A stretch of 64,000 nt of DNA from Isoetes taiwanensis (lineage: Eukaryota > Streptophyta > Lycopodiopsida > Isoetales > Isoetaceae): contig JAJEKV010000338.1 of assembly GCA_021234155.1 (NCBI GenBank), forward strand, positions 62,001 to 126,000, written 5' to 3'. The notes under the pieces are model-generated. The model made no database searches. It was not told the DNA's origin and was given only the letters and a program-made list of their open reading frames with translations. Positions 12,501 to 41,635 of the stretch are shown here, piece after piece (position 1 is the first letter of the stretch; each line of letters begins with the position of its first letter). The position numbers were made by a program, and so were the translations under genes.

Positions 12501-15390
12501 AGAAACCAATATTTATTTCAAGGTCAGCTGAAGGTTACTTAACCACTGGCTGCTGGAGCCCATCTCGGCCTGGAGTTTTGTACATTGGGAGAATAGATGG
12601 CAGCATAGAAGTATGGGACTTGCTAGATCACAGTCATCAGCCTTCAACCACGGCATCAATTGGCTCTTGGCAAGTGACATCAATGGAGTTCTACAATGAT
12701 GGAGGTCGAGATTCAACTAGGGGTAATGAACCATCAGATTTCATGGTTACTAGTTTTCATTTTGTCTATTATGTCAAGAGTGAGAGATAAAGGATAAGCT
12801 TAGATAAGGAAGCAACTATCACTAAAATGCCGCAACTTCGTTTGGAAAGTACAAATATGGCATAGAACGCTCTAGTATCATTCTCTTATCAAGGAAAGCC
12901 ATATGCAACGTCATCTAATGTTATATAACCAATCTAAAGGCAGGTCACATCATGAACTCTGGTAATTGTTATGATCATGGTTGGGTATGTCATGGCTGAA
13001 TTACTTGGTGCAGCCTGGAACTGGGAACTAAACTTGCTGAAGAACAAGAACCATGCTCAGTGTTGTACAAATTTCTCGACATGCCATTTAACATGCTCTA
13101 GTACAGCTATATGTAGCAAAGTATGGAATATATGGAATTGCATGCAAGAATGTAATTCTACAATGTCCATCTATCACCTAATCTGATTGGGGAACTCAGG
13201 GGTGGGTGTCACCTTATCAGCTAGAGATTAAAGCTGAGGTGCTCAACACAGGCTTTGTCAAATATGCAGCTCATCTTGTGTACGCCATGATCTGATTAGT
13301 GCCCACAAAAGATACAAGCGGAAATCTTCCCTGCAACAACCAAACTCAAATTTCCAGAAGAGAAGAGTAAAACAGGAAAGGAAAGGGCATTATGATCTCA
13401 ATCGCCATAAGAGAGTGCTTCATATTCTGCCTCAAAAGCTGGGTGAAAATAATCCAAAATCTGTTAATTTCCTTAATCTTTGAACTTGGTTCTACCTTAT
13501 ATTCACTTTTCTGATATTATGCAGATCCCTAGGTGTGCATAGGTTAATGTAATAAGGTCTTATAGACCACAGTCGTCGTTGGATGCAATCATTTTTTGAC
13601 CCTAATAAGGGAAACATAGTACATTATAACGTGCGAAAGATATGTTACCAGATTGTAGTGTCTTAAGTTCCTACTTCCTGAAATGCTGATGTCATTAATG
13701 AATTGGATATGCACACACGAATAACATTAGAGCAAGCCAAGAAGGCAAAGATAGGTAGATCCGCAAAGAATTATGCCGATCTCATCACTGAATTGGATAT
13801 GCGCAAATGGCTACAACAAGTCAAGAAGACAAAGAAAGATGCAGGTAGACATGTCAGCTCCTGAACATAAGACCTCGCAATCCAATGGCATTACAGCAAG
13901 CCAAAAAGGTAAAGAAAGGAGCAGGCAGATACACAAGTCAATTATTCCAAAAGATAAATAGCATTTTTTGTGCTAGGACACGCAAAAAATTAGGCCGAGG
14001 TCATCATGAATTGGATATGCGAAATAACATTACATCAAGCCAAGAAGGCAAAGAAAGAGGCAGGCAGATACACAAAAAATTATTCCGGAAATTAAAACAT
14101 TTTATAATGCCGTATCACATGGCAACATTCAATGAAGTGTCAAGCCAAAAAAGGCAAAAAAGGAGGCTGGCAGATACACAAATGTGTATTATTCTGGATT
14201 GTGCATTCACGCTAGCATTCATGTCCATTAGGTGTCCCTAGTGGGTCTTGAACAGAAGACCTCTTAGTCGCTAGTCAAATGAACTAGCCACTAAACCACG
14301 TGGAAATATTTAGCTGCTTGAAGTTATCTATTTTATCAGATTGCCAAATTATAACATTCTTATCAAATAAAAGCAATAAGGAAAAAAGCATTAGAAACAA
14401 AAACAATTGGAATAAGAACCATAGGTTAGCGTCTTTGTTTGTGACTTATTATGATCCAGCTTCATTTCTTTCTCTTTCCTTCTCCATCTCTCCCACCCTC
14501 TCTCTCTAGAGCTCTTACTTTCGTTTTGGTTAGTTGTGACTAAAAGTTTTTATGCTATTGGCAGCAAGTCAGCAACTATTGGCAGTTGGTGACATTCAAG
14601 GTTTTTTGCATATTATGGAGATACCAAGGCGGTTACGCAGAATAGTCCACAGGGAGGTATCTATCTTTTTTCCTCCCAAGATGACTACATAAAATGTCTT
14701 TCTTACCAAGCAAGTGGCACATGGCACTTATATTCTTCTCCATAAAACCATTGGCATCCAATGACAGGTTTGGTTCTATTCCAACAGTTCTGTTCTTCAA
14801 CGTTCATTTTTATTGCGCTATGGCATGACTTTAAAATTTCATAACATTTATAGAACGAAACTACAGCTCGTTCATGCTATCATTAAATTGTTTTTAATTC
14901 CATTCCATCTCGTGTAGAAAATAATGATAAGTAAGCTTTTCGATCGGCAGCAAGGCTGGGTTAAAGATATAGAAACCAGAGAGAAATTCAGAATGGACGA
15001 AATTGAAAGGAGACGCCAGCAAGAAGCCAGCACAAAGGTGCATACCTCAATAGGAGGGTACCTAAAATAAATTGTAAATTAAGAATATCAAAACTAGCAT
15101 GTTTAGCATCAGCTTGTAACTTCCAAAGTAGAGAAATAAGGAAAATATAGTTGTGAAGCATTCTTCCTGGTATTCATGCTTTATGACGTTTTATGAATTC
15201 ATCTTTGTGGTTGTATTATCTTATTTAGTTTGTGTGTGTGAAGGAACGAGAGGAACAATTGAAGAAGTGTTGTGCATGGGATGATGAGAAAGAGAACGAT
15301 TATCGAAGGTTTGAGCAAGAATGTAAACTGAAATTTGGCAATGATGATACGTTGAAAAGGACTTCAACATTGCTGAAGGTGCAAAATTAG
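6586..15390 (+). CDS. DNAI3: Axonemal inner-arm dynein intermediate chain, WDR63/DNAI3 family (N-terminus not found)
   Basis: This WD-repeat intermediate chain belongs to the I1/f-type inner-arm dynein of motile axonemes (Chlamydomonas IC140, animal WDR63), so in a plant it should act in sperm flagella. Exons read by eye: about 6586-6764, 6902-6973, 7050-7180, 7320-7436, 7540-7651, 8067-8264, 9278-9367, 10387-10566, 10725-10802, 11670-11867, 12240-12413, 12503-12722, 14565-14656, 14918-15037, 15229-15390 (TAG). All have GT-AG borders and consistent phases, giving about 706 residues. Family signatures include RVWVSQGSD, ALQQNEIMDLF, EYQSFSDLVYSKGK, WSFADPIHPQ, GGCYSGQVILWDI, VTFWDI, CWSPSRPGVLYIGR and a charged C-terminal coil rich in R, Q and E. 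Relatives have about 890 residues, so roughly 180 N-terminal residues are missing. The GTG at 6615 is not a credible start. The last exon could begin at 15229 or 15244; both keep frame. Confidence 0.88.
8460..9015. repeat. Diverged direct duplication inside a dynein intron
   Basis: Two similar blocks, about 8460-8760 and 8780-9010, share the order AGGCTAT..AAGATCAT, AGAATCTTT, GATTGCATGAAT..CATGAAA and GTTGCATTAATC. They lie in the intron between the exons ending at 8264 and starting at 9278. Many substitutions separate them, so the duplication is old. The overlapping short open frames are not genes. Confidence 0.5.
9790..10105 (-). mobile_element. tRNA-derived SINE in a dynein intron
   Basis: On the minus strand a tRNA-like head carries an A-box-like TTCAGTGGTAGAGC and, 30-odd bases later, a B-box-like GGTTTGATACT, at the spacing of a class-2 pol III promoter. 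A body of about 230 bp without coding sense follows. The anticodon arm cannot be folded into a proper tRNA, which favours a SINE over a tRNA gene. The boundaries are approximate, and no target-site duplication was identified. Confidence 0.5.
13684..14210. repeat. Intronic minisatellite, units of about 115-130 bp
   Basis: The phrases GAATTGGATATGC, CAAGCCAAGAAGGCAAAG and CAGGCAGATACACAA recur in the same order four to five times with substitutions and small gaps. The array lies in the largest late intron of the dynein gene, between the exons ending at 12722 and starting at 14565. Lysine-rich open frames over it are a by-product of the AAGAAG composition. Confidence 0.65.
14233..14304 (-). other. 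tRNA-like sequence, probable tRNA relic or SINE head
   Basis: The minus strand reads GGTTTAGTGGCTAGTTC, then about 30 bp later GTTCAAGACCC, resembling pol III A and B boxes at tRNA spacing. The acceptor ends do not pair well and no clear anticodon loop can be assigned. It sits in a dynein intron just after the minisatellite. Confidence 0.4.
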
Positions 15391-16329
15391 TAATGCAAGA
15401 AATAATGCAAGAAAAACCAAATTGAAGGCTAGGAGACAACGTCTATGGAAACAAAAGTCTTATGCTTGTAACGTGTTGATTGCAACAGGAAACTTTTTAT
15501 TATCGAAAAATTTCTTACAGTTCCATTAAGTTAGTCGTTATTTCAAGTTTACTATCGGAAATAGTACAGTCCTCGAGAAATATGCGTCAAAATTTATCAC
15601 TAAATCAATCAGAATTTTTGTAATTTCAACGGGAAAAATCTTTTTACCCCTTTCTTTTGCCCCTAACAATGTACAAGATGCAACTAGTTTTGCCACATGT
15701 CTAAATCAAGACCATGCTAGTTCCAGCACTTCCGAAAAAAATCAATAGGAAGCAATCAAGACCAGAAAAAAATCAGTAGAAAGCCATCAAGACCCGGGCA
15801 TTTGTTTAAGAGAACCACAATTGCTTTTAAATCCTCCTCTATCATATTAGACTCAAGAAGCAACCTCTGCTCTTCAGAAATAATATGACGCACCTTAGTC
15901 AACTCAGTTGATTGCATGTTTTTTTTAAGGCCAGTAAGTGTTGTGCAAAGAATGAAGAAAAGTGCTAATGAAGATATTAAGTCGTATTTAATTAAAGTGG
16001 GTCTCATTCCATTCCCACTTTTTTTCGGAACCCTGTTATTTTACACAAAAAGGAGAGCTCCGACTCGAAAACTGTCCAATATTCGAAAATTTGTCTCTTA
16101 ATGTGGGTTCGAGCTTTCTCCCAGTTTTCTCGGATAGCGAATCGAGAACAAGAACAATACAACTCAAACAAAGGAAATTCATTAAAGATTGAAGATTCAA
16201 TAAAGAGGAAGTTCTAGTTGAAAAAGATTTTTTATTAATAAATTGAATAGGTACAATGTATTTTACATCGGACGCAGAGACCATGGCGGTCTTCTTTGTC
16301 ACTACTGATTATCATCGTGGTAGGTGGTC

Positions 16330-16740
16330 CACCTTAGGGGATTAACTTGCGGGGCTTCTTCATGCCGTCAGAAGCCTTGGGGGGCAACCTGAAGAGTGTG
16401 GAATGCCTCACGAGGAGGTGCCTCGAGGAGCCACCGTTTGACTGTCCACCCGGACTTCTCCACTCTCCTCCCACGACTTTTCATCGAATATGCTCCTTCC
16501 CCAACCTCCGTGGATGTTATGCAATGCTTGCAAGATGCTTTGAGCTTTCGATCCGTCTCAAATTTCTTCCCTCTTCTTTATCCCGGCGTGTGCATGGTGT
16601 TCGCGATTCACGAGCAACCTTATCCCAAAGGTCGTAAGATTGTGGCGTGGCGGATCCGCGTGCGAAACGGTATCTCTTCCGCCTTGAGCGGGATCTGTGC
16701 CGCCTTGAGCGGTCTCTGTGATGCATGAACGGGATCTGTG
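16330..16740 (+). pseudogene. Unrecognised GC-richer coding-like fragment
   Basis: A plus-strand frame from about 16396 to 16728 reads as ordinary protein (for example RLFIEYAPSPTSVDVMQC and YPKGRKIVAWRIRV), unlike the AT-rich surroundings, and ends in a repeated GCCTTGAGCGG..ATCTGTG motif. It has no clear start and no family I recognise. It may be a gag-like fragment or the 5' part of the transposon gene that follows. The minus-strand frame across it (16517-16999) is arginine-serine rich only because of the repeat. Confidence 0.2.
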
Positions 16741-17824
16741 CTGCTACGGGATCAGTGCCAAGAAGGTAGTATACAAATGGATATGATATAATTACGAGTA
16801 TTGCAAGCAGAGAATGCCGAGGATCATCAAGGGCGGCCGACCAAAGTCGAATATCAAGCCTCCACCACCTCGACCCAGCTCTCCGAAGAAGGTCCGCCAG
16901 GGGCCAAATTCCAAGTATAGTAGAGCTTTTTGGAAGATCCGGCACTTTCAACAATGCACCAATTTGTTGATTCGGAAAACAAACATCGGAAAGTGCCATG
17001 CAATTTCAGCACTTAAAATGGAATGTTGAGGATGCTATCGAGCAAAAGGAATCAAGAATGCAGGATCAGGCTGAGCTGCAGAAACATATTGACATGAATC
17101 TTTTCAAATTAAAACATGTAGATGCAAAGATTCAAGCTACATATGTTGATATGAGCTCAGCTGAGGTAGGAGACAAAAAAATAATGAAATTGAGGGAATG
17201 TTTAGAGCATTCCTCAATCCTTACTTTGCAGCCTCCTCCTCTTCAGTCTACAATTCTTACAAATCAGATTATTGTTCAGCCTTTTTCTTCATGTACATAT
17301 TGTGAGCAATCTTTTAGTATGAATCCAGTGCTTTGCAGACATCCTTATTGTCTCTTGTGTATATCCTATCTTGCTAGTACAAAGATTTCATGTGTTGATC
17401 TGGATTGCTCATGGAATAGCAATTTGCCTATAGCACTTGGACTATTTGCAACAAAAGGTTAGTACATATACATTTGAATTACAATTTATTTTCCTTTTTT
17501 AATAGTTAAAGATTCTTTTTTGCAAGAAGGTTTTAGGCTTACATATACATTGAGCATTTAGATACATAGTCTTTGTAGTTGAATAATGTAGGTTCACTCA
17601 TATATGATCTGCCAAATGGACTACTTATTTTTAATGATGGGGTTTTTAATTTCATGTGCACATCAGGTAGAAGTAATGTAAATAGCTGATTACTTGTTAT
17701 TGAGAACTGTATAATGTAGCAATTGACAGATATATTTCTATTATGCTATCAAAATTACATTTTGATTTATGTTGAATACCTCATGACTCATTACCGGGTA
17801 GAGTGCAATATCAACTAACTTTGT

Positions 17825-18005
17825 TTACATTGACTGTACTTTAGAACAATGAGTTTCAGAGTACATTCAGTACATTTAAAGGTTTAGAATAGATTGTTCA
17901 TCGTACATTGAGTACATTGTGAAACTGCTACATTGCAATATATTGTCAGTAATTTTATTTCATTGACTGTACCTTGTAGAGTACATTAAGAATACATTTC
18001 TTAGT
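17825..18005. repeat. Cluster of GTACATT / GAGTACATT motifs
   Basis: Within about 180 bp the motif GAGTACATT or close variants (CAGTACATT, CGTACATT, GACTGTAC) occurs at least seven times. The reverse complement AATGTACTC clusters at 21,800-21,960, beyond the 5' end of the facing minus-strand ORF. The inverted arrangement resembles subterminal repeats of a DNA transposon, but this cluster lies inside intron 1 of the Ulp1-type gene, which weakens that reading. Confidence 0.4.
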
Positions 18006-18186
18006 TGATGATCTGATATACTTAATGTTTGACTGATGCAGATGACTTTGGTAGCATAAGGAAACCAGAAAAGGGTATGATATTGTAGTCTTATTAATCA
18101 GGCATATTCCTTTTCTTATTTCAACTCTTTTTCTACTCTGTACTGTAGATGACAACAAAAAGCCAACAAAATTTTCTACCAAGGTA

Positions 18187-18424
18187 CCCGGGGGATGCAC
18201 TTATACATAAGGGGGGTATGGCATCTGCGTTCGGAGGGTAGCAAAAAACCCCCCTGTATACGCAATTTTAAAAGGCAATTTGACCCCTCTGTGTATAGAT
18301 ATTGCTCCAAATCAGTGCCTAAAAACACCCCTAACCCCTAAGTATACGTACGCAAATGGTCCAAAAAACACCCCTCCGTTGAACTCTCATGGGTTATATG
18401 CTGATCAAAGGTGAATCCCCCGGG
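18187..18424. mobile_element. MITE-like element with CCCGGGGGAT terminal inverted repeats
   Basis: CCCGGGGGAT at 18187-18196 and ATCCCCCGGG at 18415-18424 form perfect 10-bp inverted repeats around 238 bp of non-coding DNA. The interior carries repeated runs such as ACCCCCCTGTATACGC and CACCCCTAACCCC. It sits in the intron following the exon ending at 18183. A clear target-site duplication was not seen; GGTA occurs near both ends. Confidence 0.55.
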
Positions 18425-20649
18425 CCACGGTATTGGATTTGATAGATGATCAGGAAGATTTGGGAATTACTTCTACATGGGCACACCTGTAAACCTTGTA
18501 AAGTCTTTTGAGGAACCAGTGAAGTCATTAGATACATGTAAGTAACTATCACGTTTGATCGATTTACAATCCCTAGGATTTAATTTTCATGTCATATGAG
18601 CTTGATATGTCACTTGTAATTCCATGTAGCCACGAGCAAACTGATTCAAACATTTGTGGATTATGCAACCGAGGTTAAAAAGTTGAAGCAGAAGGCAGTA
18701 ACTAATACTGCAGGTATATTGCATCTTCTATTTGCTTGTGTGTACTGTATTTATTAAACACTATTTTTTCCAGGTTCTTAAAGCTTTTCTTCATAGTATA
18801 AAGTTCTAGATTCCTCAGATCTTTCTGCACAGTATAAATTTCCAGAGAAACCAATTTGGAAACCTATTAAGCCAATGCCATCATTTCACCAGGAAATTCA
18901 AATGCTATTGAGTGATGATTCAACAGGTATAACATCAACTTAACTTAAAATTAGAAATGACAATACATTGGTTAACTTTGGTGACTAATTTATGCATAAG
19001 TGTTAGAACTTGGTGATTCTTCTGTAGCCTTTGTTCAGGCAACTATTGCAAAGATAGAGGATAGTGATCCTATTAAAGGAGAGGAAGAGGTGGTGGAGGT
19101 ACAAGAGATCCAAAAGGGTGATGTAGTAGTGGAGGAAACCAGGGTTGAGGAAACAAAGGTTGAGGAGACCAAGGTTGAGGCAACTAAGGTTGACGACACA
19201 GAGGAAACCAAGGTTGAGGAAACCAAGGTTGAGGAAACCAAGGTTGTTAAACTAGAGAAGCAGACATGAAAAAGGAAGGAGTTTATGCAAAATAGAACTT
19301 CAACCAAGAGGTGAATATATATTATTTTACTTGAAGCTAATGTAATATATGAACAATCTTATGACAACTTCTGCAGGAGTAGAAGCCAAACATCACCTGA
19401 GAGTGCTCGATCTTATGCATCTGCAGATGACCCCATATGAGAGTAAGTAAGGTGCTATTGTAGTTGCAATTCGTTTGTTTCTCACTAATGCAAGTTTGGT
19501 TTACAGAGAGCTGGAGAGCTTGTTGAAAATAGTTCTATGCTACCCTTTCCAGCAAAAAACTCTAATCAAGGCGACTAAATTTCTGTGTGGAAGGTCTGTG
19601 CAGAGACAGGCACATGTCCAACAGGCATATAAATATATTTGGAAGGTAATTTGATCAGCTTCTTCTTTGCATTATGGTTATAATTGAATATCTAACCTCA
19701 CCTGTTTTATGAATAGGTACCTGATTAGCATTATGCTGCATTTTATTTCTTCCCCTCAAGAGAAGTTTTTAGCCTACAGAACAGCCTATAACAAACTGTC
19801 ATCTAATGCAACTTCAATGGTGCAGTCTAGACTAGTTATAGTTCAAAACGAGCTTCAAGGAATGATCTTACGCAAATGCCAGTACATTATGATTCCAATC
19901 TAGATTGTGGATCCTATGCACCATGCACTGGTCATCATTGTTTTAGATAAGGCCAAAAACTGTAGTAGCACCCCTTTGTCTTCTCCACCTATCCTTATTC
20001 TAAACTCTTAAAGAGTGTGCAGGTTGACATGAGGATGGTTATGATGTAAGTGCATTCACTATTAATTGAGTTTAATGTTGCATAATTCCGACGTTATTTT
20101 CTATTACAAGCTTCATAAAGACATCATTATAGCATTGACTAATTCTAGTTCTTGTGAGATTGATATTTATGTTTATGTGAAGAATTCAGTGCAAAACGAA
20201 ATTAGAACTGAGGTTCCACAACAAGATAACATGATCTCTTGTGGTCTTTATGTTATGGTTTATATGCAAGCCTTTGTGGATGCCCATGTGCAGGCTAAGA
20301 GCATGGTGAGAATTACATACTAAGTATGCTTTTTATATAAAATTCAATTCTAAAAACTGACTTTTTCGATTCCTTAAACAATTCTCTTCAGATTGGTTTG
20401 ATGCAGAGTATGCACAGTCCAGGAGACATGTGCTCATTAAGGCCATGATGAATTATAAGAACGATCTCATCGAAATAGGCACTACCAGCACCTCGCATGA
20501 GAAGCATCGTAGTGCTTAACTTCTTTTATTTGATGATATCAAATGAGGTCGATTGGCTTTTTTCTTGTTGGAAACAAAACTAAGCCATTTGGCTTTACGT
20601 AGTCTTGATAATGTAATCAATGAATGGTTGCAATCCTAGTGCTATTGTA

Positions 20650-21826
20650 TGTTAATTACATTTTGCTTCCTTATAGACCTCCTAATATTTAAGATTCAAG
20701 GTGTTCTAGGTTACTTTTATATAACTCCAGGAATCAATATTTCCTCTTACAAGCCCATAATTACAGAACATGGAGTTTTCTACTACAGACCAACAATGAA
20801 AGCAATGCTTCAATATGCCTCCTTTCATTGGAATTTGGCCTATCAATTTTGGACAAGCTCTATGAAGATGCCATCCCAAAATTTAAACATATTTATGGAA
20901 AAGAGATATGTTGGGGACTTCCTTACACAAATTCAGTTGGTGTAAACCCTCAAGTAGTACCTATGAATAGCCTTCTCATTGAATATCTTCTGTCATCAGA
21001 AATATACAAGTGAACAATCTTCTTTAAGATGCCATTTACCTTTAGCATGGTAATCTTATAGTAATTTGGTCTGCATTCCAATGCTCTGGCTGAACCTCTT
21101 TGAAAGGCTTCAATGTATAGTTTTCTGCAAAGTCAACCACTAATATCATTGTCTCAGTTTTTGAACACATCTTCTGAATTCTTTGCTTCACCAGTGAGCT
21201 GCAAAGTTGTGATGGAGAAATATTTACATGTGACCAAATATGGCATCCAGCATTACAAGTGCATTTGTTGTCTTGTCCATCAATCTGAGTCTTCTTGAGA
21301 CTCATTTTTTAGACTTCTCATCCACATAAGAATATATTTGCTAATTGACTTTATTTACAATGTCATTTTCAGTTTCTTTTGGATACAAGATAATGTTCTG
21401 CTTACCACAGTTCTTGCAATCACTTGCAATACAATTTATTTTATGCCACCATCACTATCCCGTTTTGTTCAAACCATACTCCTCCATAGAGTGCTGACAT
21501 TACAGTATGCATGCTTGTGAGCCTGACAAATTCCATCATTATTGTTAGCAGCATAAACATCACAATTGCAGCTACAATTGATGTGGAGCTTAGGCCCTCA
21601 TAGAATTAAATGCCTTCCTGAAGCTCTCTTCTTACTCATGCTTGACACAACATGTGTTTCTTCCCTTCAGCTTTCTTACACAATCAGATTTGAGGTATTT
21701 GAACAATCTAATGCCAATATTTGCCTTTGGGTGTTGCTCCACAAAGTTCTGGTACAGCTCAGCCGGTAAATTCAAACCATCATAGTTAAAGATTTTGTAT
21801 GTGCAATTGAGTACATATGGAGTCAA
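20650..21826 (-). pseudogene. Cys-rich transposase-like protein with a DFAENYT motif
   Basis: Minus-strand reading starts near 21826. Segment 1 (about 21826-21635) has LYQNFVEQHPKANIGIRLF and ends CCVKH before a GTAAGA donor. Segment 2 (about 21600-21470) has CSCNCDVYAANNNDGIC and QAHKHAYCN. Segment 3 (about 21440-21060) has CIASDCKNCGKQ, then ETMILVVDFAENYTLKPFK and PEHWNADQITI. A last piece near 21010-20960 reads KIVHLYISDDRRYSM before stops. From memory, the same order (EQHP..IG, Cys clusters, DFAENY..HW, ISDD) occurs in an uncharacterised protein family abundant in animal genomes, which suggests a transposon protein. It faces the Ulp1-type gene end to end. A competing plus-strand open frame at 20828-21013 is possible but has no recognised family. 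Confidence 0.5.
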
Positions 21827-21960
21827 AATGTATTCACAATGTACTCAAATGTACTAAGGTGTACTCACAATGTACTTACAATATACATACACATATACAT
21901 TAAATATATGTGGCATAATAAAGAAGCAATGTGGGTACATTACTGTAGCCTAGAGCATAT
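21800..21960. repeat. Cluster of AATGTACTC motifs, inverted relative to 17.8-18.0 kb
   Basis: AATGTATTC, AATGTACTC, AATGTACT, GTGTACTC and AATGTACTT occur in quick succession. They are the reverse complement of the motif cluster at 17,825-18,005. The cluster starts at the 5' end of the minus-strand Cys-rich ORF, where a promoter or a transposase-binding subterminal region would be expected. Confidence 0.4.
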
Positions 21961-22206
21961 TAATGTTCCAGAGTAAATTCTTGAAGTCCATAGGTAGTAT
22001 CTGAAAGTCTGAGTACAAGATATGTATTCTATCTACATGTATGGATACAATATTATGCAATATCTAATCTATGTATTGGTTAAGAAATATGGAGTCACTA
22101 CATAAATAAGAAAGGAAGATTTAGTATAATATACATGGTCAATAAATGTAAGCAGACCAACAAAGGTGATTGCATATGTATAACTAACTAAAAGTGAATA
22201 CATAAA

Positions 22207-23587
22207 TGATAGATCAATCACTAGAAAGATTGCTGAATTATATGAATGTATCCACGTGCAATGATCATTGTATGGCCTCTAAGACCCACATGGCATGCAT
22301 GATAATTTATCCTTCATTGGGTTCATTGAAACAAGGATTGGAACATTGAACATTCTAAGTTTAACTCCATATGTGAGTTCAAGTTTGTAAATATTAGGAT
22401 ATATATTTATTTCAATAGAACTATTTCAAAATTGATCATATAAAATGAGCACATATCTCTCGAAGGGCCTTTACTCATTAAATAGGTAGAATGTCCATCT
22501 ATTCTTCAGCATTCAACTAGCTTATGGAGGTAAAGTCTAGAAAACTTTTTCTTTATAGATGGATATCATCAATAATAAGAGGAGTTCATTTGTTTAAACC
22601 GCTAGTTAGCCAAATGCAAGTACACTGCACTGCAAATAAGATACTGGTATTCTCTAGGGTTCTGTTTTGTAGGTTAGAAAGAAGCTGCTTCACAAAGTTT
22701 ATAATGTAGATGCTATAGTCGATGCCTTCGTGTTGTTGTGGAAGATCCAACACAATGAAAGGCGTGTTGTATTGCCACCACTTTTTGCCTCCATCTCCAA
22801 AGTAGATCACTTAAGAACCTGAAAGACCATCATTTAGGTCTCAATTTACAATTCCAAGCTGTGTGGAATTTCAAACCGCTTACAAAGTTACAAACTCGCC
22901 TAGTAAGTGCATGTGAACCTTCTAATGAGTAAAAGTGCAGTATACAAGGACATGGTTGAAGAGAAAATGTTCATATTATAATCATAAATTGCTAAGGTCA
23001 GAGATGTACTTATGCAGGGCTAGGTGATCACATAATATGAGAAGGTGCAGAGATATGAAAGTCTGGAGGCAAATTAACGTTAGAACTTAAGTTTTTCTAT
23101 GGTCTGAAGTTCATGAAGTTAAGAAGTTAAAGGTTAACCTTGAGGTAAGACGTTTGAATGGTTATATGAAATAAAGAATGGTCTATGGTTAACCATTGGA
23201 AAATGGGCGGTCAAATACTATTCAAACAGCTAGCATGGACCAACTTGGAAATCGAAGAACTAGAGCGAATCTGGTGCCGATTTGTGATGAATCGGTGCCG
23301 ATTGATTATAATATAATGAGTATGAAGTGTTATGAGCTTGCAGGCTGAATTCCAGAGTGCCGGATCCATGAATACATGGATGCTTGGGCTATCGGAGGTC
23401 CTATAAGCTTAACTTGAATATTTCGATGTAAAAGAAGCTTATCTATTGCTACAGTTGGGCAATATAAGGTCGAACCATTGGTGCATTGTTTTGTTAATAG
23501 CTTAAAACTTGTTCAATGGTTTAATGCAATTGAGTATGCTAAAGCCTTGAGTTTGCTAAGTAAAATAGACAATTGTAAATCCTATCA
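22207..23587 (+). mobile_element. Possible 5' LTR of a plus-strand LTR retrotransposon
   Basis: The right edge is firm: ...CTATCA ends one base before a primer-binding site at 23589. The left edge is a guess. The nearest upstream TGATAG, which would make the matching terminal inverted repeat, is at 22207 and would give an LTR of about 1.4 kb. The interval is AT-rich and has no coding frame. It does not resemble the LTR at 33.9-35.3 kb, so it belongs to another element. Confidence 0.3.
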
Positions 23588-23588
23588 G

Positions 23589-23600
23589 TGGTATCAGAGC
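23589..23600 (+). other. LTR-retrotransposon primer-binding site (initiator Met-tRNA type)
   Basis: TGGTATCAGAGC matches the 3' end of plant initiator tRNA-Met in reverse complement and follows CTATCA, a plausible 5' LTR end. About 600 bp of non-coding DNA follow before the LINE begins at about 24,235. Whether the gypsy pol at 27.06 kb belongs to this element cannot be decided, because its 3' LTR looks different. Confidence 0.6.
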
Positions 23601-24234
23601 ACCAGGGAAAATTTTAAGGGACCTATAATTTTGTATAAGTATAATGAATTGGCCATTCCTTGTAAAATATGCCCCCAAAAGTGTAGCCTAAACTGGCCAT
23701 TTTTCCTATTTTTTTCTAATGTGGCTGCAACCCAATTGGCGATTTTTGAATTAAATATCTAATAATGTGTAGCTCAAATGGCGATTTTTAGCTACATTCT
23801 TATTAACTATAGAGCTAGTTGCCCAAACATATAGAAGTCGCTACCCTATATAAATGTGTTAAGTTACATGTTGTATGAATTTGAATTCATACCTCATGTA
23901 TTTCAATAATGCACAGCTTGCTAGTAGGGAGAATCAGAAATCGGATGCCGGAGTCTTCATAAAGAGGATTGAAAAGTGCCTCGACATTTGATTTTCCAAA
24001 AGAGCGGGATTATTTTTAGTTGGTAGATATATATAGGAATAAAAATTTCTAATAATGTTGCCCCCCCATAAGTGAAAATTTTTGAGGGGGCCTCTTAATG
24101 GGTTAAGATTTGGCGAACTTAAGCCAGTACAGGATTTGGCCAAGTGGCCTAAATGGCTATTCCATAAGCACATCTAGTCCTCACTTGGGACTAAATTGGC
24201 CCTAAAGTCAATACCACTCCAATTAGCAAACATC

Positions 24235-27060
24235 TAATTGGCTATTCTAATGTCGTAATAGGCAATAAAGTGCCGCAAAAATGGCAAAAGGGGCAGCTGG
24301 GAACGCATGTAGAGCTGTGGGCCCTGGGCTAACACGGGGTTGATGTGCTCCTTGTAATGGGCCATTTTGACCTGCTCTAGAGAGGGGTCCCGTGAGCTTG
24401 CCAAGGAAACAAAGCGTCTAGGTACTCTCGCAGAGCGGTCCACGATCGGCCGGCTGTGGTCCACCGCGACGATCTGCATTATCTGCCGCGTTCCATCCGG
24501 GCGAACCACCGATCTCTCTTACCCCTCCAGCGGGCCCTAAGCGGCTGGCGGATCCATTGCCACATTGTAAGCCCGGTCGCGGGAGCCGAGCATCACCCAT
24601 AGTAACCACTTTCTTAAAATAGGCGATGTGTCTATTATTATGCCCGTGAGCGGCAAGAATCGATTTTCGCAGCCGAGAACCGATAGGGGATTTGAAGGTT
24701 TCACCAAGTGCCAGGTGCCAAAAATGCATACGCACCTGCTCCAAGTCATTCCAGTGTCGCCAAAGAGACGCATCGCCCCAAACCTCGACCCGTCTGCATG
24801 TAGCGACGGGCTCGACCGGTGCCCGAACAGATGTGGACTGATGGCCCCAATCATAGAGCTCGCACGGTGATCTGTTGTTCGCATGGCATAAAAGCGCTTC
24901 CAACTGCTTTGTCACCCAAGCGGATATAGCGCCTCCCGCCAGAGCGAGGAGGGGAACTCCAACCCTAGGTACTTGTAGGTGGGCGTGACGCCCACAGGCT
25001 GTCCCCGATATGTGAGTGCGGGAGGCATGGGGTGGCGTGAAGAGGATATGAGAACCACCACGGTCTTGGCCGATTCACGCGCAGATGTTCAGCGACAAAA
25101 TGTGTCTAGGGCATCTAGGTGAGACTACATAGCTTCGGTGTGTGGGCCCGAAGGCCAACATCGTCGAGATAGATGGTGGGCGGATGACCCGGGTGCAAAA
25201 GGCGTATGCCATTCCCCATGCTCGCAGAAGCGGGGCTCTGGCCCGATTAATGTAGAGGCCAAAAAGTGTTGGTGAGAGGGGGCAACCCGGGACCGATACT
25301 TCATCTGGTGAATGCTTGGCCTGGTCGGTTGCGATCCACGCCAAAACAACTCTCATACAACACGTATATGGCATGCTCGCGACGTGCAAGGGGAGCCCGG
25401 TTGACTTGATCTAGCCCACAGCTTTTCCCGAGAAACCGTATCAAAAGCCTTCGCGAAGTCCACAAAGCATTAATACAAGTCTTTGCCGATGATGATTCCT
25501 ACCGTCTTCAATCGCCCGCCGATTAAAGATATGGTCAATCGTTGAGTGGCGGGGCGTCTAAAGCACGCTTGTGTGAGGGCTTCTCGCGACATCTCACGCC
25601 GCCCGCCCGGTCAACTGCCGCCGAGAATGCCGGCCAACAGTTTGGCAAATACCGAACCGACCATGATCGTCCGGTAATTGGCGACACGGTGTGGGGTCGC
25701 CCGCCTTTGTGAATGGGAACAACCACGCTTGTGGTCCATTGTCTGGGAGACCTTCCTGCAATGCTCGTTGAGCGAGGTAGTGAGGACCAAACAAGCGCGC
25801 ACGCCCATTTGAGTAACTTCGGCCTGCACATACCATCGAGGTCGTTTGCTTTCCCATTGGGGCCGTTGGTGGCCCTCCTCAACATCCTCCTCCACGAGAA
25901 CCAATGGGGGGGCCATCCTGGGGGGGTATGGGCGTCGGGCGTCCACGGTGGGTCATGCCGCAGCAATCGCATTTCCCCCCGCCCGGGTGTGATGTCCCCC
26001 GAGGCTGGGCTGGCCTTCAAAGCACTCTAGCGCCAAAAGGTTGAGGATGAGTGTCGGCAGGTATAACAACATCTCCCCGATGCACGGCAAGGTACCGCCT
26101 TTGTCTCCTTCGATGGGATGGGCGCTGATGCGTGTGGTGGCTGGCGGGTACACGGATCGAGAATGTGATGGAGCTGCGGCTTGCATTCTTTACACTCGCA
26201 TCAAACCATCGGTTCTGGCGGGAATGTTGCTGACCCCGGCGACACGGGGAGGGGGGTGGGCGCCAAAGCACTCCGGCCATCCGTAATCCCGAATAGAAGT
26301 CACCGGTCCTGTCACGCTTGCTACCGTGGAGGTCCAGATTAGTGGGAGGGCGTCCATGAGCATCTACAGAAGTCCTCTGCCTGCTCATAATCTAGTCTCA
26401 ACCGAGGGGGCGAGGGGCTGGCATAGTGGGGGGGCGGCTTGCCAAACCAGGTCCAAATAAAGTGGGAGGTGATTCGAGTCGACCTCCTCATCCCGAATCG
26501 CGTGTGCCCACCCGGAACGGCCGATGAGATGCATATCTTGCGCAACTATGAGCACATAGTCCACCACACTAGACCCTCCCCGATTGTCACCGGGCTGCAT
26601 GTGCACTTGCGAGAATGAGGGCCACCTGCGGAGGCCATTGCAAATTATCAAGTCAAAAATACCACATAGCAGGGGAGGGCTATGCAAAGCGCAGTGACCT
26701 GGCCGTCATCCGATCCTCATTGGCGGGGTTGCTTCTGGGCGAAGGAAGGCTGCCGAGGACATCGTCGGCGAGGGGTCAAGTCGCATGGGCTGCTCTACTC
26801 CTGTCCGTGCATTGAAATCTCCAAGAATAACGACCCTACCCAACTGCTGGTGCTGCTGTATGTCATCATATAGATCGACATAAGGGTCCATCCTATCTGT
26901 ATCGGGGTGGCTGCGATAGAAGGTGCTCTCTGCGTGAGGGAAATAACAGGCGGCCAGAAAAAGAGGGTTGCCACTGGTATTATGCACACGAACCCACAAG
27001 TACCGGTTGGTAATACATCGATTACGGAGGGTGGCAATGTGCCAAGGTTGTCCGGTAGTA
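24235..27060 (-). mobile_element. Non-LTR retrotransposon (LINE) with endonuclease and reverse transcriptase, broken
   Basis: Read right to left, an APE-type endonuclease (NRCITNRYLWVRV, ACYFPHAES, VVILGDFNARTG) lies at about 27,000-26,770. Reverse transcriptase follows: NGPNGKANDLDGM and VVVPIHKGG near 25,900-25,700, NYRTIMVGSVFAKLLAGIL near 25,650, and FVDFAKAFDTVSREKLWA near 25,450. A C-terminal region with LEQVKMAHY and HINPVLAQGP ends near 24,250. Several frameshifts and stops break it. It is clearly GC-richer than its surroundings. Compared with the copies at 36.2, 47.9 and 57.0 kb it lacks the 3' tail. Its endonuclease end abuts gypsy pol at 27,060, so one element probably inserted into the other. 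Confidence 0.8.
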
Positions 27061-28450
27061 GCAATTGCCAAGTTTTGTAGAGAATGTTTTGAAAAGCTCA
27101 AAGAAGCCTTGACAACAGCACCAGTGCTCATCCTACCAGATCCAAATAAGGATAAGCTTGCAAGTATACTAGCAACGGGTGGAGTCCTTATGCAAGAAGG
27201 AAGAGTAATGGCGTATGACGCTAAAAAGGTGAATGGCACCGAACAACGTTATCCAACGTGCATGATCAAGAACTTCTAGTTGTTGTAAGAGCTCTTCGTA
27301 TTTTGAGGCACTATTTGCTTGGTAGGAAATTTCCGGTTAGAATCGATCACCAAAGCCTCCAATATATTTTCATGCAACCACTCCACAATTTGAGGCAAAG
27401 ACGCGGGATGGAATTCCTCGAAGAATATGACTTCGAGATAGTCTATAAGTCAGATAAATTAAATGTGGTTGCTGACACACTCTCATGATAACCATTGGAG
27501 ACTCGAGTGCATTGAAATGCCATCTCCACCTTGTTCAATGAGTTCAGCAAAATGATTGAGGAAGTTTTACCCTCAAGCAAAGAATTCACGGAAGTATGGG
27601 CTAGTCTTTGGTCCTTGCAAGAAAGTAAAGATAGACAAAGGAAGAGAAGCCTATAAAAGATATAAAAAAGAAGGCAAACTCTTATATCATAAAGACAAGC
27701 TTTGCATTCCAGAGTAATCAAGAGTAATGAAATTAATTCTCCATGATACTTGATAGCCGGCTACGGGGGATTCATGAAAACTTACTTCAAGATAAGGAGT
27801 AGTTACTTTTGGCCTGGCATGAAGAAAGACACCGCCAACTAGCAAACAAAAGCAGAGCAACTCCGAATCCCAGGAACCCTAGAACCTTTAGAGGTTCCAA
27901 ATGCCAAATGGGAGCTTGTAAGCATGAACTTTATAACTAGGCTCCCAAAAATAGCAAGGGGCCATGACGCCTTAATGGTAGTGGTTGACAAACTATCAAA
28001 GATGGCGCACGTTTTGCCATGTCGAACCACAGATATGGCTTTAGACACCGCGTTGCTTTTTCTAAAGGAAATATTCAGATTGCATGGGATGGGAAGGAAA
28101 ATTATCTCCAATAGAGACCCCAAGTTTATAAATGCCTTTTGGAAGGACTTCTTCAACACGATTCAGACAAAGTTATCCATGAGTACAACATATCACCTCT
28201 AAACAGATCGGCAGACTGAACGTACAAGGCAGATAACAGAAGACATATTGAGAACTATGTGTGGAATAAGTCAAAGTGGGGAGACTATATTTACTTGGTA
28301 GAGTTTGCATATAATAGTAACAAACAAGAACCCTCGCAAATGTCCCCCTTTATGATAAATTATGGTTATCAATGCTTAACACCAGACAATTGGCATAACC
28401 GAGTGTCCAAGATAGAAGTTTCTCAATAAATGTTGACTGATATGCAACAA
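27060..28450 (+). mobile_element. Ty3/gypsy pol, first part: RT end, RNase H, integrase
   Basis: The plus strand reads FEKLKEALTTAPVLILPDP (end of reverse transcriptase), then RNase H with GVLMQEGRVMAYDAKK and the DHQSLQYIF and LNVVADTLS motifs, to about 27,488. The integrase core follows from 27,890, with MNFITRLPKIARGHDALMVV, KLSKMAHVLPC and the IISNRDPKF motif, up to EFAYNSNKQEPSQMSPF near 28,350. A degraded stretch at 27,490-27,890 corresponds to the integrase zinc-binding region. Stops and frameshifts show it is dead. Upstream gag, protease and most of the RT are absent, replaced by the LINE. The reading stops at about 28,450, where a duplicated module begins, and resumes near 30,480. 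Confidence 0.85.
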
Positions 28451-30478
28451 ATATCTAGCATAATGACAGGGGGTCATTTTTGTGTTTTTGTACGATATTT
28501 ACAAAGGTTTTTCTATGATTTCATTGCCGTATTCATCTTGGTGTCTTGAAGAGCGGTATTTCTAGAGTGCAGCTTATCTTGACCATTCATTTTTATGAGA
28601 AGCGACATAAATCTGGTCCACGATTAAATTTGTAATGTTTTTAGCACTTAAGTTTTCTTAAAAGGTTTGGAATTGGGCATGCGACCATCGAGGCCCTATG
28701 TAGTTAGGGTTTTTTTTTTTGTTTGAAATGGAAGCAAAGCACGGCAAGGTTTATGTTTTACGCCAAACCCGAGATGCCCCGCCTGGGATGCCCAAGGCCG
28801 TTGAGTTATGATCTGAGGAGGTCTCGTTTGGGCTTCTTTGCATTCGACCGGGGTCTCTGCCGCTTTCAAAACACGGGGTGTGAGGTAAGCACAATTTTGT
28901 GCCCTTGAGCTAATCGGGTCTACAATTTTTCCTACGATTTGGAGATTGGCATTTTGGGTTATCTCGTCCCGGGTTCTTGAGGATTCTCGGGGATTTCTTG
29001 GCATGTAAGCCATTTAACATGATCGAGGCTTTTCCATTCTATTCTATTATCCATCAAAATATTGTGTGTTCAGAAAGATATTTGCTTGCTGTTGATTTGT
29101 GGCAGAGGTGATGCTCTTGATTACAGCAGATGAAGAATAAATTCTCTTTATGAATTGTGTAGTTATCTTTGGCCCATCTTATTTGGTCGATGAGTTGTGG
29201 ATGGGGTTTTTTATCTTTGGAGGTGCAAACTATATGTTGAGAAGCAGCGAGATTCTGGAATCAGTGTATCCATATAGACAGCAGTAAAATATCTGAAACA
29301 TCTCTGTTAGAATATGTAAGAAAATGCAGCTTCCTGTTCCGAGGTCATCCATCTCATGCATCCTTTTTCTTGATATTTTGTTATAGGTGTCTAAAGGAGT
29401 AGTTGAGAAGGCAAAGCCGGGAACGATATGGAACAGCATGGCCATCTGGGATCCTGGTTGCCATGCTACTTCTCAAGCATTGCCATATCACAGATTGCTA
29501 GATATTCTAAGGGTTTTATGCTATCAATGGTTTCTTGCAGACACCCTGTTAGCCTTCTGCAGATTTTATATTTGGAAATGCCATGCTTGTTCTCAAGCAT
29601 TGCCTCCAATTATGGTTACAAATTCGTCCTAAATCCTCCAGGAGGAGACCATAATGTTGTTAATCTTACAACATTTGAAGCCATTGAGAAGCTAGCAGGT
29701 TGTATACACATTATGTGTTCATCTCAATTTCATGTCTGCACTCTTTTCTGCAATATGTGCGCCTGGCAAGAGAAAGCTTGTTGCATATTAAAGACTTAAG
29801 GATTCACACACAATCCTGTTCAAGTTCTGGCCATTTTATAACAGCATATTTGCATATATTTGAGTGGCCTTTGCTATGCAATGCAAGAAATATTCATCCA
29901 GCCCTTGGTATCTGTGCAAGGTAAAGCGCAAGGCACACTTTGTAATAGAAGAGACTGTGGCAAACGCTCCAAACAGATGCATGTACATAGTGGTGTGGAC
30001 ATGTATGGCATGTATAGAAACATGCAATATAATGTATTTATTTCTATTCATGTTTTTATTACATGCAATATTGTACTTGGAACAAGGTTATTTTGCACCT
30101 GGAGATATATATATTTGGAATTTGCTGCTCCTCAAAATTTAACTACGTTCTCTTTTCTTAGGGCCCGAAGGGCCCAAAAATTTTTTATATGTATATAACA
30201 TCCACCATTGGCAATAATTAACAAAACCATTATATCCTACATGTTAAAATTAAAATCCCCCTTGGACCCCCTTTGGTTTGGGTGCATATTCACACGGGGG
30301 GTCACGTAGGGCAGCGAGAGCCCTCGGATGAGCATATATGCCTTATATTCCTTGATGTGGACCGTAGATAGCGATCCTCGTTTATGGGGTATTCTTGTAC
30401 AAATTTTTATATACGGTATATGCAGGTGTGCGAAATACTATAAGATTTGAGTTAATATATTATATGGTGTCAATTAGT
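28450..30478 (+). mobile_element. Unidentified duplicated module, copy A (inserted in gypsy pol)
   Basis: This block begins AATATCTAGCATAATGACAG and matches copy B (31,419-33,277) almost throughout. It interrupts gypsy pol, which resumes at once on its right. It looks partly gene-like: an ATG near 28,729 opens MEAKHGKVYV, ending at a stop after about 27 codons, and exon-like edges occur at GTGAG|GTAAGC (28,882) and TTATAG|GTGTC near 29,387. No recognisable protein emerges. The last 340 bp (30,140-30,478) form a separate repeat that recurs inverted at 33.3 and 45.6 kb. It could be a non-autonomous element carrying a captured gene fragment. No terminal repeats typical of a known class were found. 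Confidence 0.6.
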
Positions 30479-31418: not shown

Positions 31419-33277
31419 AATATCTAGCATAATGACAGGGGGTCATTTTTGTGTTTTTGTACGATATTTACAAAGGTTTTTCTATGATTTCATTGCCGTA
31501 TTCATCTTGGTGTACTGAACAGTATTTCTAGAGTGCCGCTTATCTTGACCATTCATTTTTTATGAGAAGCAGCATCGTACGGTCACGATTAAATTTGTAA
31601 TGTTTTTAGCACTTAAGTTTTCTTAAAAAGGTTTGGAATTGGGCATGCAGCCATCGAGGCCCTATGTAGTTAGGGTTTTTTTTTTGTTTGAAATGGAAGC
31701 AAAGCACGGCAAGGTTTATGTTTCTGCCAAACCCGAGATGCCCTGCCTGGGGATGCCCAAGGCCGTTGAGTTATGATCTGAGGAGGTCTCGTTTGGGCAC
31801 TGCTGCATTCTGACCAGGGGTCTCTGCTGCTTTCAAAACCTGGGGTGTGAGGTAAGCACAATTTTGTGCCCTTGAGCTAATCGGGTCTACAATTTTTCCT
31901 ACGATTTGGAGATTGGCATTTTGGGTTATCTGTCCGGTTCTTGAGGATTCGGCGGATTTCTTGGCATGTAAGCCACGAACATGATCGAGGCTTTTCCATT
32001 CTATTCTATTATCCATCAAAATATTGTGTGTTCAGAAAGATATTTGCTTGCTGTTGATTTGTGGCAGAGGTGATGCTCTTGATTACAGCAGATGAAGAAT
32101 AAATTCTCTTTATGAATTCGTAGTTATGCTGGCCCATCTTATTTGGTCGATGAGTTGTGGATGGGGTTTTTTATCTTTGGAGGTGCAAACTATATGCTGA
32201 GAAGCAGCGAGATTCTGGAATCAGTGTATCCATATAGACAGCAGTAAAATATCTGAAACATCTCTGTTAGAATATGTAAGAAAATGCAGCTTCCTGTTCG
32301 AGGTCATCCATCTCATGCATCCTTTTTCTTGATATTTTGTTATAGGTGTCTAAAGGAGTAGTTGAGAAGGCAAAGCCGGGAACGATATGGAACAGCATGG
32401 CCATCTGGGATCCTGGTTGCCATGCTACTTCTCAAGCATTGCCATATCACAGATTGCTAGATATTCTAAGGGTTTTATGCTATCAATGGTTTCTTGCGGA
32501 CACCACAATAGCCTTCTGCTGAATTTTATATTTGGAAATGCCATGCTTGTTCTCAAGCATTGCCTCAATTATGGTTACAAATTCGTCCTAAATCCTCGGG
32601 GAGGAGACCATAATGTTGTTAATCTTACAACATTTGAAGCCGATGAAGCTAGCAGGTTGTATACACATTATGTGTTCATCTCAATTTCATATATGCACTC
32701 TTTTACGCAATATGTACCTGGCAAGAGAAAGCTTGTTGCATATTAAAGACTTAAGGATTCACACACAATCCTGTTCAAGTTCTGGCCATTTTATAACAGC
32801 ATATTTGCATATATTTGAGTGGCCTTTGCTATGCAATGCAAGAAATATTCATCCAGCCCTTGGTATCTTGTGCAAGGCAACTGCAAGGCACACTTTGTAA
32901 TAGAAGTGAGGCGTGGCAAGCGCTCAAACGGATGCATGTACATAGTGGTGTGGACATGTATGGCATGTATAGAAACATGCAATATAATGTATTTATTTCT
33001 ATTCATGTTTTTATTACATGCAATATTGTACTTGGAACAAGGTTATTTTGCACCTGGAGATATATATATTTGGAATTTGCTGCTCCTCAAAATTTAACTA
33101 CGTTCTCTTTTCTTAGGGCCCGAAGGGCCAAAAATTTTTATATGTATATAACATCCACCATTGGCAATAATTAACAAAACCATTATATCCTACATGTTAA
33201 AATTAAAATCCCCCTTGGACCCCCTTTGGTTTGGGTGCATATTCACACGGGGGGTCACGTAGGGCAGCGAGAGCCCT
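31419..33277 (+). mobile_element. Unidentified duplicated module, copy B
   Basis: This is a second copy of 28,450-30,327, in the same orientation and again inside the gypsy element, after pol. Identity looks high over the whole length. Differences are mostly one- to three-base changes, many where one copy has CG and the other has CTG, CAG or nothing. The right end stops at GAGAGCCC (33,277), about 150 bp short of copy A, and is followed by an inverted stretch of the same module end. Confidence 0.6.
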
Positions 33278-33570
33278 TAAATTATATTACACACGTATGA
33301 AATTGACACCATATAATATATTAACTCAAATCTTATAGTATTTCGCACACCTGCATATACCGTATATAAAAATTTGTACAAGAATACCCCATAAACGAGG
33401 ATCGCTATCTACGGTCCACATCAAGGAATATAAGGCATATATGCTCATCCGAGGGCTCTTGTTGCCCGGAGTGACCCCCCGTGTGAATATGCACCCAAAC
33501 CAAAGGGGGTCCAAGGGGGATTTTAATTTTAACATGTAGGATATAATGGTTTTGTTAATTATTGCCAATA
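33161..33570. repeat. Foldback: inverted repeat of the module end
   Basis: The left arm 33,161-33,277 (TTGGCAATAATTAAC.. to ..GAGAGCCC) pairs with the right arm up to 33,570 (..GTTAATTATTGCCAA). The inverted arm as a whole, 33,300-33,570, is the reverse complement of 30,200-30,475 in copy A, including the 150 bp missing from copy B. The arms are nearly identical. Confidence 0.85.
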
Positions 33571-33868
33571 GAGGAAAGTGACCGTAAAGAGGGAGTGCAT
33601 CACACAAGGAATATGAGCTTATAACATTTTGTCTTAGTTATAAAACTCCTCAGGATGTTTCAAGTTATCATAATGTAAAAATTGCTGAAACTATATAAAT
33701 TGTATAAGAATGTGAATATAGCTTCACACTCATATTCAGGTAATTAACACCGGAAGTTATGGTTGTGATAAATTCTAAGTGTTAATGTGAATATTCTTCT
33801 TTTATATTGTGCAAGTTCGTTTCACCTTATGTAATCTTGAGGGATGACATTATCCTAAGGGGGGAGAA
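33571..33868 (+). other. Gypsy 3' non-coding region ending in a polypurine tract
   Basis: AT-rich non-coding DNA ends with AAGGGGGGAGAA at 33857-33868, a typical polypurine tract that primes plus-strand synthesis, directly followed by TGTGGCG, the LTR start. Confidence 0.65.
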
Positions 33869-37985: not shown

Positions 37986-39872
37986 CCTATAGGCGAGAAT
38001 TCATTTGAGAGAATTCAACTATTTTTATTACTTGTCGTCATGATTAGCTTCTCATTTTTGAGTAAAGCTTGGTAATTGTTTAATATTTCATACATTCCAG
38101 ATTAGAAAAAAGATGCCTCCTAAACATTTTGAAGATGAGTTTTTTGCATGGAAAATTATATCAAACCCAGGAACTGATAGAATATTATCGAACCAATTTC
38201 ATTTGGAGATGGTACATTCTTTTGAATGCTGCAAGCTAATAATGCAAGTCTGCTCGATGGAAGATTGTGTGGTCACTTGAGGGACCCGCGTGACTTTAGG
38301 AACTGAATTACTTCTCATAGTTGACACAGCAGCACTCCACTCCCTTTCCTCCTGCTTGGCTGGAATGTCATCTTTACCAGGCTTCATGACACCGAGTCTT
38401 CACTCTTGCTTTTACATGAAATTGCTGGTCATGATCGGGATTTTCTTCGCGCTATGGATTTTCTTTCCTCTATTCTCCAGTTTTTGAGAGAATCTAGGCG
38501 AGTATAGATTATCCAATCAAAATCAAGCTATTCCCAATTGGGATTGAGTGAAATGCGCTGCTGTCAAGTAGCATTGCAAGTGAGATCGTCAGCCTCCAAG
38601 GTTGCAACATGAGAGAATTCAAGATTTGAATTGCAAGGTGCCATGTTTCTGCCGAAAGGGTTGGATCCTCCTCCCAATGATATCGTACATCACTGATGAA
38701 CTCGACAAGTAGGATTTCAAAAAGGATGATGGTACGGGGGATAACACATTGTGCTCTCGACATCTAGGATTGCTAACTTGACATTTCCAGATATTTGAAT
38801 TTTAAGTTGGGGATGCCAGGACTTGATGTCACGTTAGGTACTTGGAGATCCCGATTTTTAGTTAGAGATCCCTAGCCACGGTATCACGTATGGGTGTTTG
38901 CATTGAGGGCTACGATGCTCCGACGAAGCTGAGGATGTGGTCGACTACGCATCTTACACAAGTCAGGTACAACGTGGCGGGAGGGGAGGGAGGGGCCGGG
39001 CTCCATATAGAGGACATGCGAGGGATCCCCAGGGATCTCGGAGCGGGGAGTTTTCTGTTTTTGCACCGACATCATCAAACTCGGAGTATGACCCACTTGT
39101 TCAACTTGAATCTCGAATAATAATAACACGTTCTTATTATATTTCTTAAAACTATGGCCCTTGCATGTGCCGTCCCATAACCCGTTGGGTTCCCGTGGAC
39201 CTAAAAATTCTTATCTTATCTTATCTTTAACTTTTCAAACATTTAAAAAGTCTATTGACAAATTTATTTTCTTTGGTTGCAATTTGCAAGTCAATTTGGT
39301 AAAGTATATATTTGAATTTGTAATGTACATGATATTTACCCCCATACATAATTATTTTAATATAGTGGGAGCAAGAGCATGAATGCATTGCAACGTGCAT
39401 ATTCAACTATCCACATTACTCGTTGCAACATTTAGTTTTAGTTCGTGTCAAAGTGACCACCACAATAAAGCAATAAACTTATGTATATAAAATTTAAGCC
39501 AGTTCCATATATGTGATCTTGTTGGTACCACATGGCTCTTTGCTGAGTTTTCAACTTCCTCCTTGTTAGGGGAGCCTTGGATGCCAATTGAATGCTTCAT
39601 TCAACTTGAAAAGGAATATGATTAGGTTCAGAAGTTTCTATGAACGACCTAGTTTGTTTAATGTTAGTCATATATACCAAATACTAGTGCAACTTGATAT
39701 TCAATATAAAATGCAACAACATGGGGATAAACAAAAAGCGAACAACTTGAGAAAGTTTATTAGATAATGACATGGGAAGACTTGAAAATTGACAGTAATA
39801 GTCCCAATAAAGTCAATCGATTTCTATGGTAAGACGATCTCTAGACTGGGGCCTATGTAACACGTCGACCTA

Positions 39873-40010
39873 CAAAGTCAATATTCCGCATTAGAAATAC
39901 AAAGTCAATATTCCCCCTATGTGTTACAATATGAAGTCAATATTCCCTATGCATTAGAAATACAAACTCAATATTCCCCCTATGTTTTACAATATGAAGT
40001 TAATATTCCC
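39873..40010. repeat. Short tandem AAAGTCAATATTCC repeats, first cluster
   Basis: Five copies of (A/G)AA(G/C)T(C/T)AATATTCC begin at about 39,873, 39,901, 39,933, 39,963 and 39,996. The spacers include CCCTATGCATTAGAAATAC and CCCTATGTGTTACAATAT. The reverse complement contains TTGACTT, a W-box core. Confidence 0.8.
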
Positions 40011-40298
40011 TATGCATTAAAAATATATCATGGATTCATAGCAGACCCAACATATTTTCTGATGAAGCAGCACTCCACTCCCTTTCCTTCTGCATGGCTG
40101 CAATGTCAGCTTTGCCAGGCCTCATGATATCAGAGCCTTCATTTCTTACTTTGGTGAAGTCGACAAGCAGGATTTGAAAAAGGATCATGGTACGGGGGAT
40201 AACACACTGTTCTCTCGACATCCATGATTGCTAACTCAAGGTTTCCATATATCTAAATTTTAAGTTGGTGATCCCAGGACTCGATATTGCAGAAGGTA

Positions 40299-40622
40299 AG
40301 GGGTAGATAACGCCCTGGTCAGAGGGCGTTATGGGAATAAAATTCTCGGGCAATATGGCCATGGCCAAAATGGCTCTGGTGCATATTGCCCGAGAATTTT
40401 ATTCCCTCCCGCATGCCCGAGCCATTTTGGCCATGGCCATATTGCCCGAGAATTTTATTCCCATTAACGCCCGAGGGCCAAGGCGTTATCTTCCTTAACA
40501 CCCTGCTCTGAGGGTGTTATGAGCCTTCGTGATAAAACCCTAGGGCGTTATGAGCCTTTGTGATAACGTCCTAGGGCATTATGACTGTTTTAGCCATAAA
40601 AACCCAAGGAGCAGGGTGTTAA
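40299..40622. mobile_element. Two adjacent foldback/MITE-like elements inside one target-site duplication
   Basis: Element 1, 40306-40490, has the ends GATAACGCCCTGG and CCAAGGCGTTATC. Its long near-perfect arms are 40329-40376 and 40419-40467 (CTCGGGCAATATGGCC and its complement). Element 2, 40495-40622, has perfect 14-bp ends TTAACACCCTGCTC and GAGCAGGGTGTTAA. The pair is flanked by AAGGTA at 40293-40298 and 40621-40626. Unit A of the tandem duplication has no insert here, confirming insertion. No coding sequence. Confidence 0.8.
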
Positions 40623-41532: not shown

Positions 41533-41635
41533 AAAGTCAATATGCCCTATGCATTTTATACAAAGTCAATATTCCCAGTGCGTTAAAGTGTAAAGTCAAT
41601 ATTCCCAGTGCGTTAAAATATAAAGTCAATACTCC
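41533..41635. promoter_or_regulatory. Four AAAGTCAATATTCC repeats 200-300 bp upstream of MYB gene 1
   Basis: Copies start at 41,533, 41,562, 41,592 and 41,622, spaced 29-30 bp apart. On the opposite strand each reads TTGACTTT, containing the WRKY-binding W-box core TTGAC. Their place just upstream of the MYB start makes a regulatory role possible, but the cluster could equally be a passive remnant of the tandem duplication. This is an inference from motif and position only. Confidence 0.4.

Follow-up and report, generated by a model that had tools for sequence, protein, structure and literature searches.

A plus-strand gene with multiple exons converges on a decayed minus-strand gene within the window (the whole 64-kb stretch of DNA analysed here), and each gene has a cluster of short repeats just 5' of coding sequence (Table 1). 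Exon 1 of the plus-strand gene encodes a basic and proline-rich N-terminus (GGRPK..), a predicted long helix, and then a RING-like Cys/His cluster, whose last cysteine pair has the spacing C-x4-C.

Table 1. Features of the block, in window coordinates
Feature	Position	Strand	Remarks
Multi-exon gene	about 16814-20520	+	RING-like Cys cluster, VEETK array, Ulp1/C48 domain
Exon 1	16814..17457	+	presumed start ATG at 16814; donor CAAAAG/gttagt
Intron 1	17458..18041	+	phase 1; GT..AG and register; holds left AGTACATT cluster
Left cluster	17826..18000	+	AGTACATT at 17860, 17869, 17911, 17980
Exon 2	18042-18074	+	between introns 1 and 2
Exon 3	18149-18537	+	contains nested insertion and frame change
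MITE-like insert, 242 bp	18187..18428		inside exon 3; ends CCCGGGGGAT.../...ATCCCCCGGGCCAC
Exons 4-7	18630..19445	+	stop in exon 6, stop in exon 7; exon 7 end provisional
VEETK array	19132-19246	+	within the span of exons 4-7
C-terminal exons with Ulp1/Peptidase_C48 domain	19507..20520 (approximate)	+	HHALVIIVLD; QQDNMISCGLYVMVY; exon limits provisional
Decayed minus-strand gene	20934..21829	-	EQHP, CCVKHE, CNCDVY, C..CG clusters, DFAENYTLKPFKEVQPEHW, YISDD; five frame pieces
Right cluster, inverted orientation	21809..21970	-	AATGTACT at 21838, 21848, 21869 on the + strand

Two decayed genes

All six junctions examined in the plus-strand gene (exons 1-7) are canonical GT-AG introns. Introns 1 and 2 are canonical and in phase 1; read from the frame that is open at the end of exon 3, introns 3-5 are also in phase 1 and intron 6 is in phase 2. 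Because exon 3 has a frame change, the exons past it are mostly closed in the strict register of exon 2. Toward the C-terminus, the read-through translation passes the Pfam cut-off for Peptidase C48 (PF02902; E 2.6e-7, 31.1 bits against 20.7), and the uninterrupted 85-aa ORF at 20066-20323 also exceeds it (E 5.1e-6, 26.9 bits). With this significant domain and the six GT-AG junctions, the claim of an earlier note that a plus-strand, multi-exon gene with Ulp1 motifs lies here is borne out, and the C48 domain and most of the gene structure are directly established. In the PDB, the region has three weak sequence matches, two to SENP7 and one to Ulp2 (E 0.087-0.15). Within the catalytic set, the His (HHAL) is visible and SENP7 aligns with the Q..C segment, in a stretch interrupted by stops; the catalytic Asp could not be placed in the C48 frames. 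The VEETK array that the note had listed is present. Its RING-like cysteine cluster was found as a cysteine cluster, but not as a significant RING domain, the match to zf-RING_UBOX in Pfam falling below the cut-off (E 0.066, 13.7 bits against 25.2). An AlphaFold model of the exon 1 product, which places the helix at residues 4-56, is of low confidence (mean pLDDT 43.7) and little informative.

The reading frame of this gene is damaged along its length. With 16814 as the start of the gene, exon 1 holds one frame change, located near 16971-17025. The ends of the insert in exon 3 show inverted similarity, 4 nt out of register, and GGTA flanks it on both sides (18183-18186 and 18429-18432); behind it, the reading register of the exon picks up again unchanged. 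Given the frame changes in exons 1 and 3, the nested insert, and the stops that interrupt exons 6 and 7 as well as the open frames of the C48 region, the plus-strand gene looks dead.

Four frame changes split the minus-strand gene, which runs from about 21829 to 20934, into five open pieces. These adjoin or overlap one another, each ends at a stop, and three contain an internal stop; indels and point mutations account for them better than introns, and the pattern looks like decay, with an intron possible at one junction. The frame is convergent on the Ulp1 gene, as had been claimed, but the intron-containing structure claimed with it is not convincing in view of these abutting or overlapping, stop-closed pieces. 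The cysteine clusters, EQHP, DFAENYT, and ISDD all lie where the note had placed them. The frame ends shortly past ISDD, a motif found once elsewhere in the window (near 49810), and the gene looks dead and cut short. On the same strand, upstream of the DFAENYT frame, an ORF at 22589-22810 with LPQQHEGIDYSIYIINFVKQLL resembles a degenerate Ulp1 Q..C segment; it has no Pfam match.

Profile searches assigned the minus-strand gene to no family: the read-through had no match in Pfam, its 88-aa piece had one match below the cut-off (E 0.068), and two matches in NCBIfam were far below their cut-offs (E 8.7e-4, 18.5 against 100 bits; E 0.016, 15.5 against 86 bits). Its motif order would match that of an animal DFAENY/DFSENY family, presumed to be a Cys-rich region, DFAENY, six residues, E-V-Q..HW, and ISDD; unlike that family, the window copy is without its C-terminal half. 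The motifs presumably to be expected downstream of DFAENY are SDG..QYK and HGK..CDG.GG. Neither appears in family-like form in any of the six frames of the 64-kb window, and this motif scan gave no backing to the idea that the lost half sits in another part of the 64 kb. In a single comparison with a putative animal relative, a short match had 11/32 residues identical (E 0.001), the animal sequence being a provisional one, written out after the window was read. A presumed animal member of the family drew only a match to SAM_PNT below the cut-off in Pfam (E 0.13).

Inverted clusters and the search for ends

On the plus strand, AGTACATT occurs seven times in 64 kb, with four occurrences within 17860-17987 and the other three single; its complement occurs four times, three of them within 21838-21876 and one outside the clusters. 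Local alignment of the stretch 17750-18060 with 21780-22100, the latter reverse-complemented, reaches a score of 38, a value matched by 0/1000 dinucleotide-shuffled pairs (mean 22.3, s.d. 3.0) and by 0/2000 randomly drawn pairs of real sequence (mean 18.9, s.d. 2.7), for two regions that were picked on the basis of their naming in the earlier note. When each was compared with the rest of the window (788 comparisons each, 320-bp stretches, step 160, both strands), the inverted GAGTACATT-type clusters proved to be reciprocal best matches within the 64 kb: outside the partner cluster, the left one scored at best 33 (against an unrelated stretch at 63521), and the right one reached 30 when a score of 31 in the stretch next to the left cluster, on its upstream side, is not counted. 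In direct orientation, left and right score 32, as expected because the short repeats are partly palindromic.

The relatedness of the two clusters in inverted orientation, above chance, is thus a direct observation, and this part of the proposal that they are subterminal repeats stands. The subterminal position is doubtful: the left cluster lies in intron 1, as the note itself had stated, about 1 kb from the presumed gene start, and it is therefore not terminal if exon 1 belongs to the element.

Terminal inverted repeats (TIRs) with target-site duplications (TSDs) were sought on both sides of the gene pair, using 18-nt arms with at least 13 matching positions and a TSD of 2-10 nt, on the left in 14500-18050 and on the right in 21700-25000. 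This yielded 67 candidate pairs, compared with 23, 41, 127, and 90 when the search was shifted to each of four control placements. The top candidate, 17680/24247 (13/18 matching, with the 6-nt direct repeat TAATGT), was not above the tops of the controls; no TIR and TSD enclosing both genes stand out from the control placements, which, for one decayed copy, is a weak negative. By eye, no TSD accompanies the inverted pair at 16950/23477, whose 14 nt match perfectly, and we attribute this pair to chance. By blastn, no second copy of the block was found inside the 64-kb window.

One element or neighbouring relics

The block may be a dead, truncated copy of one land-plant DNA transposon that combined a putative RNase H-fold transposase gene with a Ulp1 accessory gene; we would give this account an even chance. 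In it, the minus-strand DFAENYT gene would encode the presumed transposase, with a DD(D/E) domain of RNase H-like type that has lost its later portion in this copy. The DFAENYT piece, modelled with AlphaFold from its single sequence at low confidence (mean pLDDT 58.5), agrees with such a core: a strand at residues 54-59 ends at the D of DFAENY and two further strands come after it, an order resembling that of the RNase H core; a fold search with this low-confidence model returned 0 matches at E <= 0.001. On this account, the aspartate of DFAENY would be the first catalytic acid, and the second and third catalytic motifs that would be expected are absent from this truncated copy. We infer that the protein could bind the AGTACATT arrays, which face inwards on either side and may be transposase-binding or shared regulatory repeats, and would cut the ends with its RNase H-like core. 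The plus-strand gene, in turn, would encode an accessory protein with a Cys-cluster N-terminal half, possibly zinc-binding, and a C-terminal Ulp1-type SUMO/ubiquitin-like protease, which may strip SUMO or a similar tag from proteins of the host or of the element.

The union of both genes in one element is the leading reading, with the balance of probability close to even. It gains support because the inverted clusters at the 5' sides of both genes are reciprocal best matches, and because a significant C48 domain is present and such domains ride on DNA transposons, among them Ginger1 and Mutator, including plant Mutator (PMC2836005). Among the points against it are the search for a TIR with TSD, which gave nothing above the control placements, the intronic left cluster, the score of 32 for the clusters in direct orientation, and the score of 33 at 63521. 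The claim of a single autonomous element is strengthened by the clusters as to unity but finds no support as to the autonomy of this copy, in which both genes are broken and the minus-strand gene is cut short.

The same association of C48 domains with plant Mutator elements (PMC2836005) also suits a different history, in which two relics of unrelated origin ended up as neighbours. One would be a ULP-type gene, either a host gene or one that a Mutator-like element carried; the other would be a piece of some further element, which contributed the DFAENYT gene. Both genes are degraded, no ends were found that enclose the two, and a reverse transcriptase piece elsewhere in the window attests to other mobile debris. 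Against such a juxtaposition stand the inverted clusters, which link the 5' sides of both genes, and we consider it possible but rather doubtful. Less probable still is that the plus-strand gene is simply a decayed host gene, with a RING-like region and a ULP protease, and that the AGTACATT clusters represent a dispersed AT-rich repeat of ordinary type, with no tie to transposition. The introns, canonical and mostly in phase 1, would fit a host gene, as would the intronic place of the left cluster, and AGTACATT is also found singly outside the clusters (three plus-strand places, and one for its complement). An ordinary dispersed repeat sits poorly, however, with a score of 38 between the two clusters when elsewhere in the window the left one reaches at best 33 and the right one 30.

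Likeness to known elements and other features of the window

Ulp1-carrying Mutator-like elements of plants are known under the names Kaonashi and KI-MULE. The single element proposed here would resemble them as a plant DNA transposon bearing a C48 domain; it differs in the presence of the DFAENYT gene, in that long TIRs were not found, and in that the pieces scanned gave no match to a MULE transposase family. In Ginger1, the Ulp1 domain is likewise tied to a transposase, which here is presumed, and in one family it occurs with a PHD finger (PMC2836005). There, a Gypsy-integrase-like transposase carries the Ulp1 domain at its C-terminal end (PMC2836005), whereas here it belongs to a separate, convergent gene; no integrase core was matched in the pieces of the block scanned with Pfam.

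More tentatively, the block may point to a superfamily without a Pfam model, common to plants and animals, in which a DFAENY transposase is accompanied by a separate convergent Cys-cluster/Ulp1 gene, with inward AGTACATT-type arrays 5' of both; we regard this as somewhat unlikely. The sharing between plants and animals is presumed, both in the earlier note and here. C48 proteases turn up repeatedly on different transposons. A role of these proteases in transposition or repair is suggested by the authors of PMC2836005. If the reading is true, the pairing of Ulp1 with a Pfam-less transposase family in plants and animals would add another independent case, and a class of repeats that now lack annotation would gain a name; the dead window copy serves only as a pointer to them.

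Relatives of the minus-strand gene were sought in several collections. In viral contigs, a protein search gave five pattern matches, none confirmed, and of three DNA patterns two were without a match and one led to two loci (L001 and L002), which were set aside because their listed ORFs of at least 100 aa look unrelated by eye. A stricter pattern found none in prokaryote genomes, and a looser one led to eight loci, every one of which was put down to chance when its frames were inspected by eye (local alignment scores 30-40); plasmids gave 1 match, at E 10. Absence from these viral, prokaryote, and plasmid collections is expected for a eukaryotic element and so has no bearing on plants and animals. 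In literature searches, no such element appeared in the titles or abstract starts among the matches listed; the available part of PMC12730594 does not mention Ulp.

The Myb DNA-binding pieces of the window and its reverse transcriptase piece agree with an origin in the nuclear genome of a land plant. The window holds further repeated sequence. A near-identical direct duplication (28450-30324 and 31419-33277) is 95% alike over 1.88 kb, with an inverted piece at 33301-33575, and arrays with a unit like AAGTCAATATTCCC occur in two places within 39871-41651. Myb DNA-binding pieces lie at 41.6-42.9 and 61.0-61.5 kb, in two Myb gene copies (41617-42881 and 60833-61514) that are partly 71% alike in DNA.
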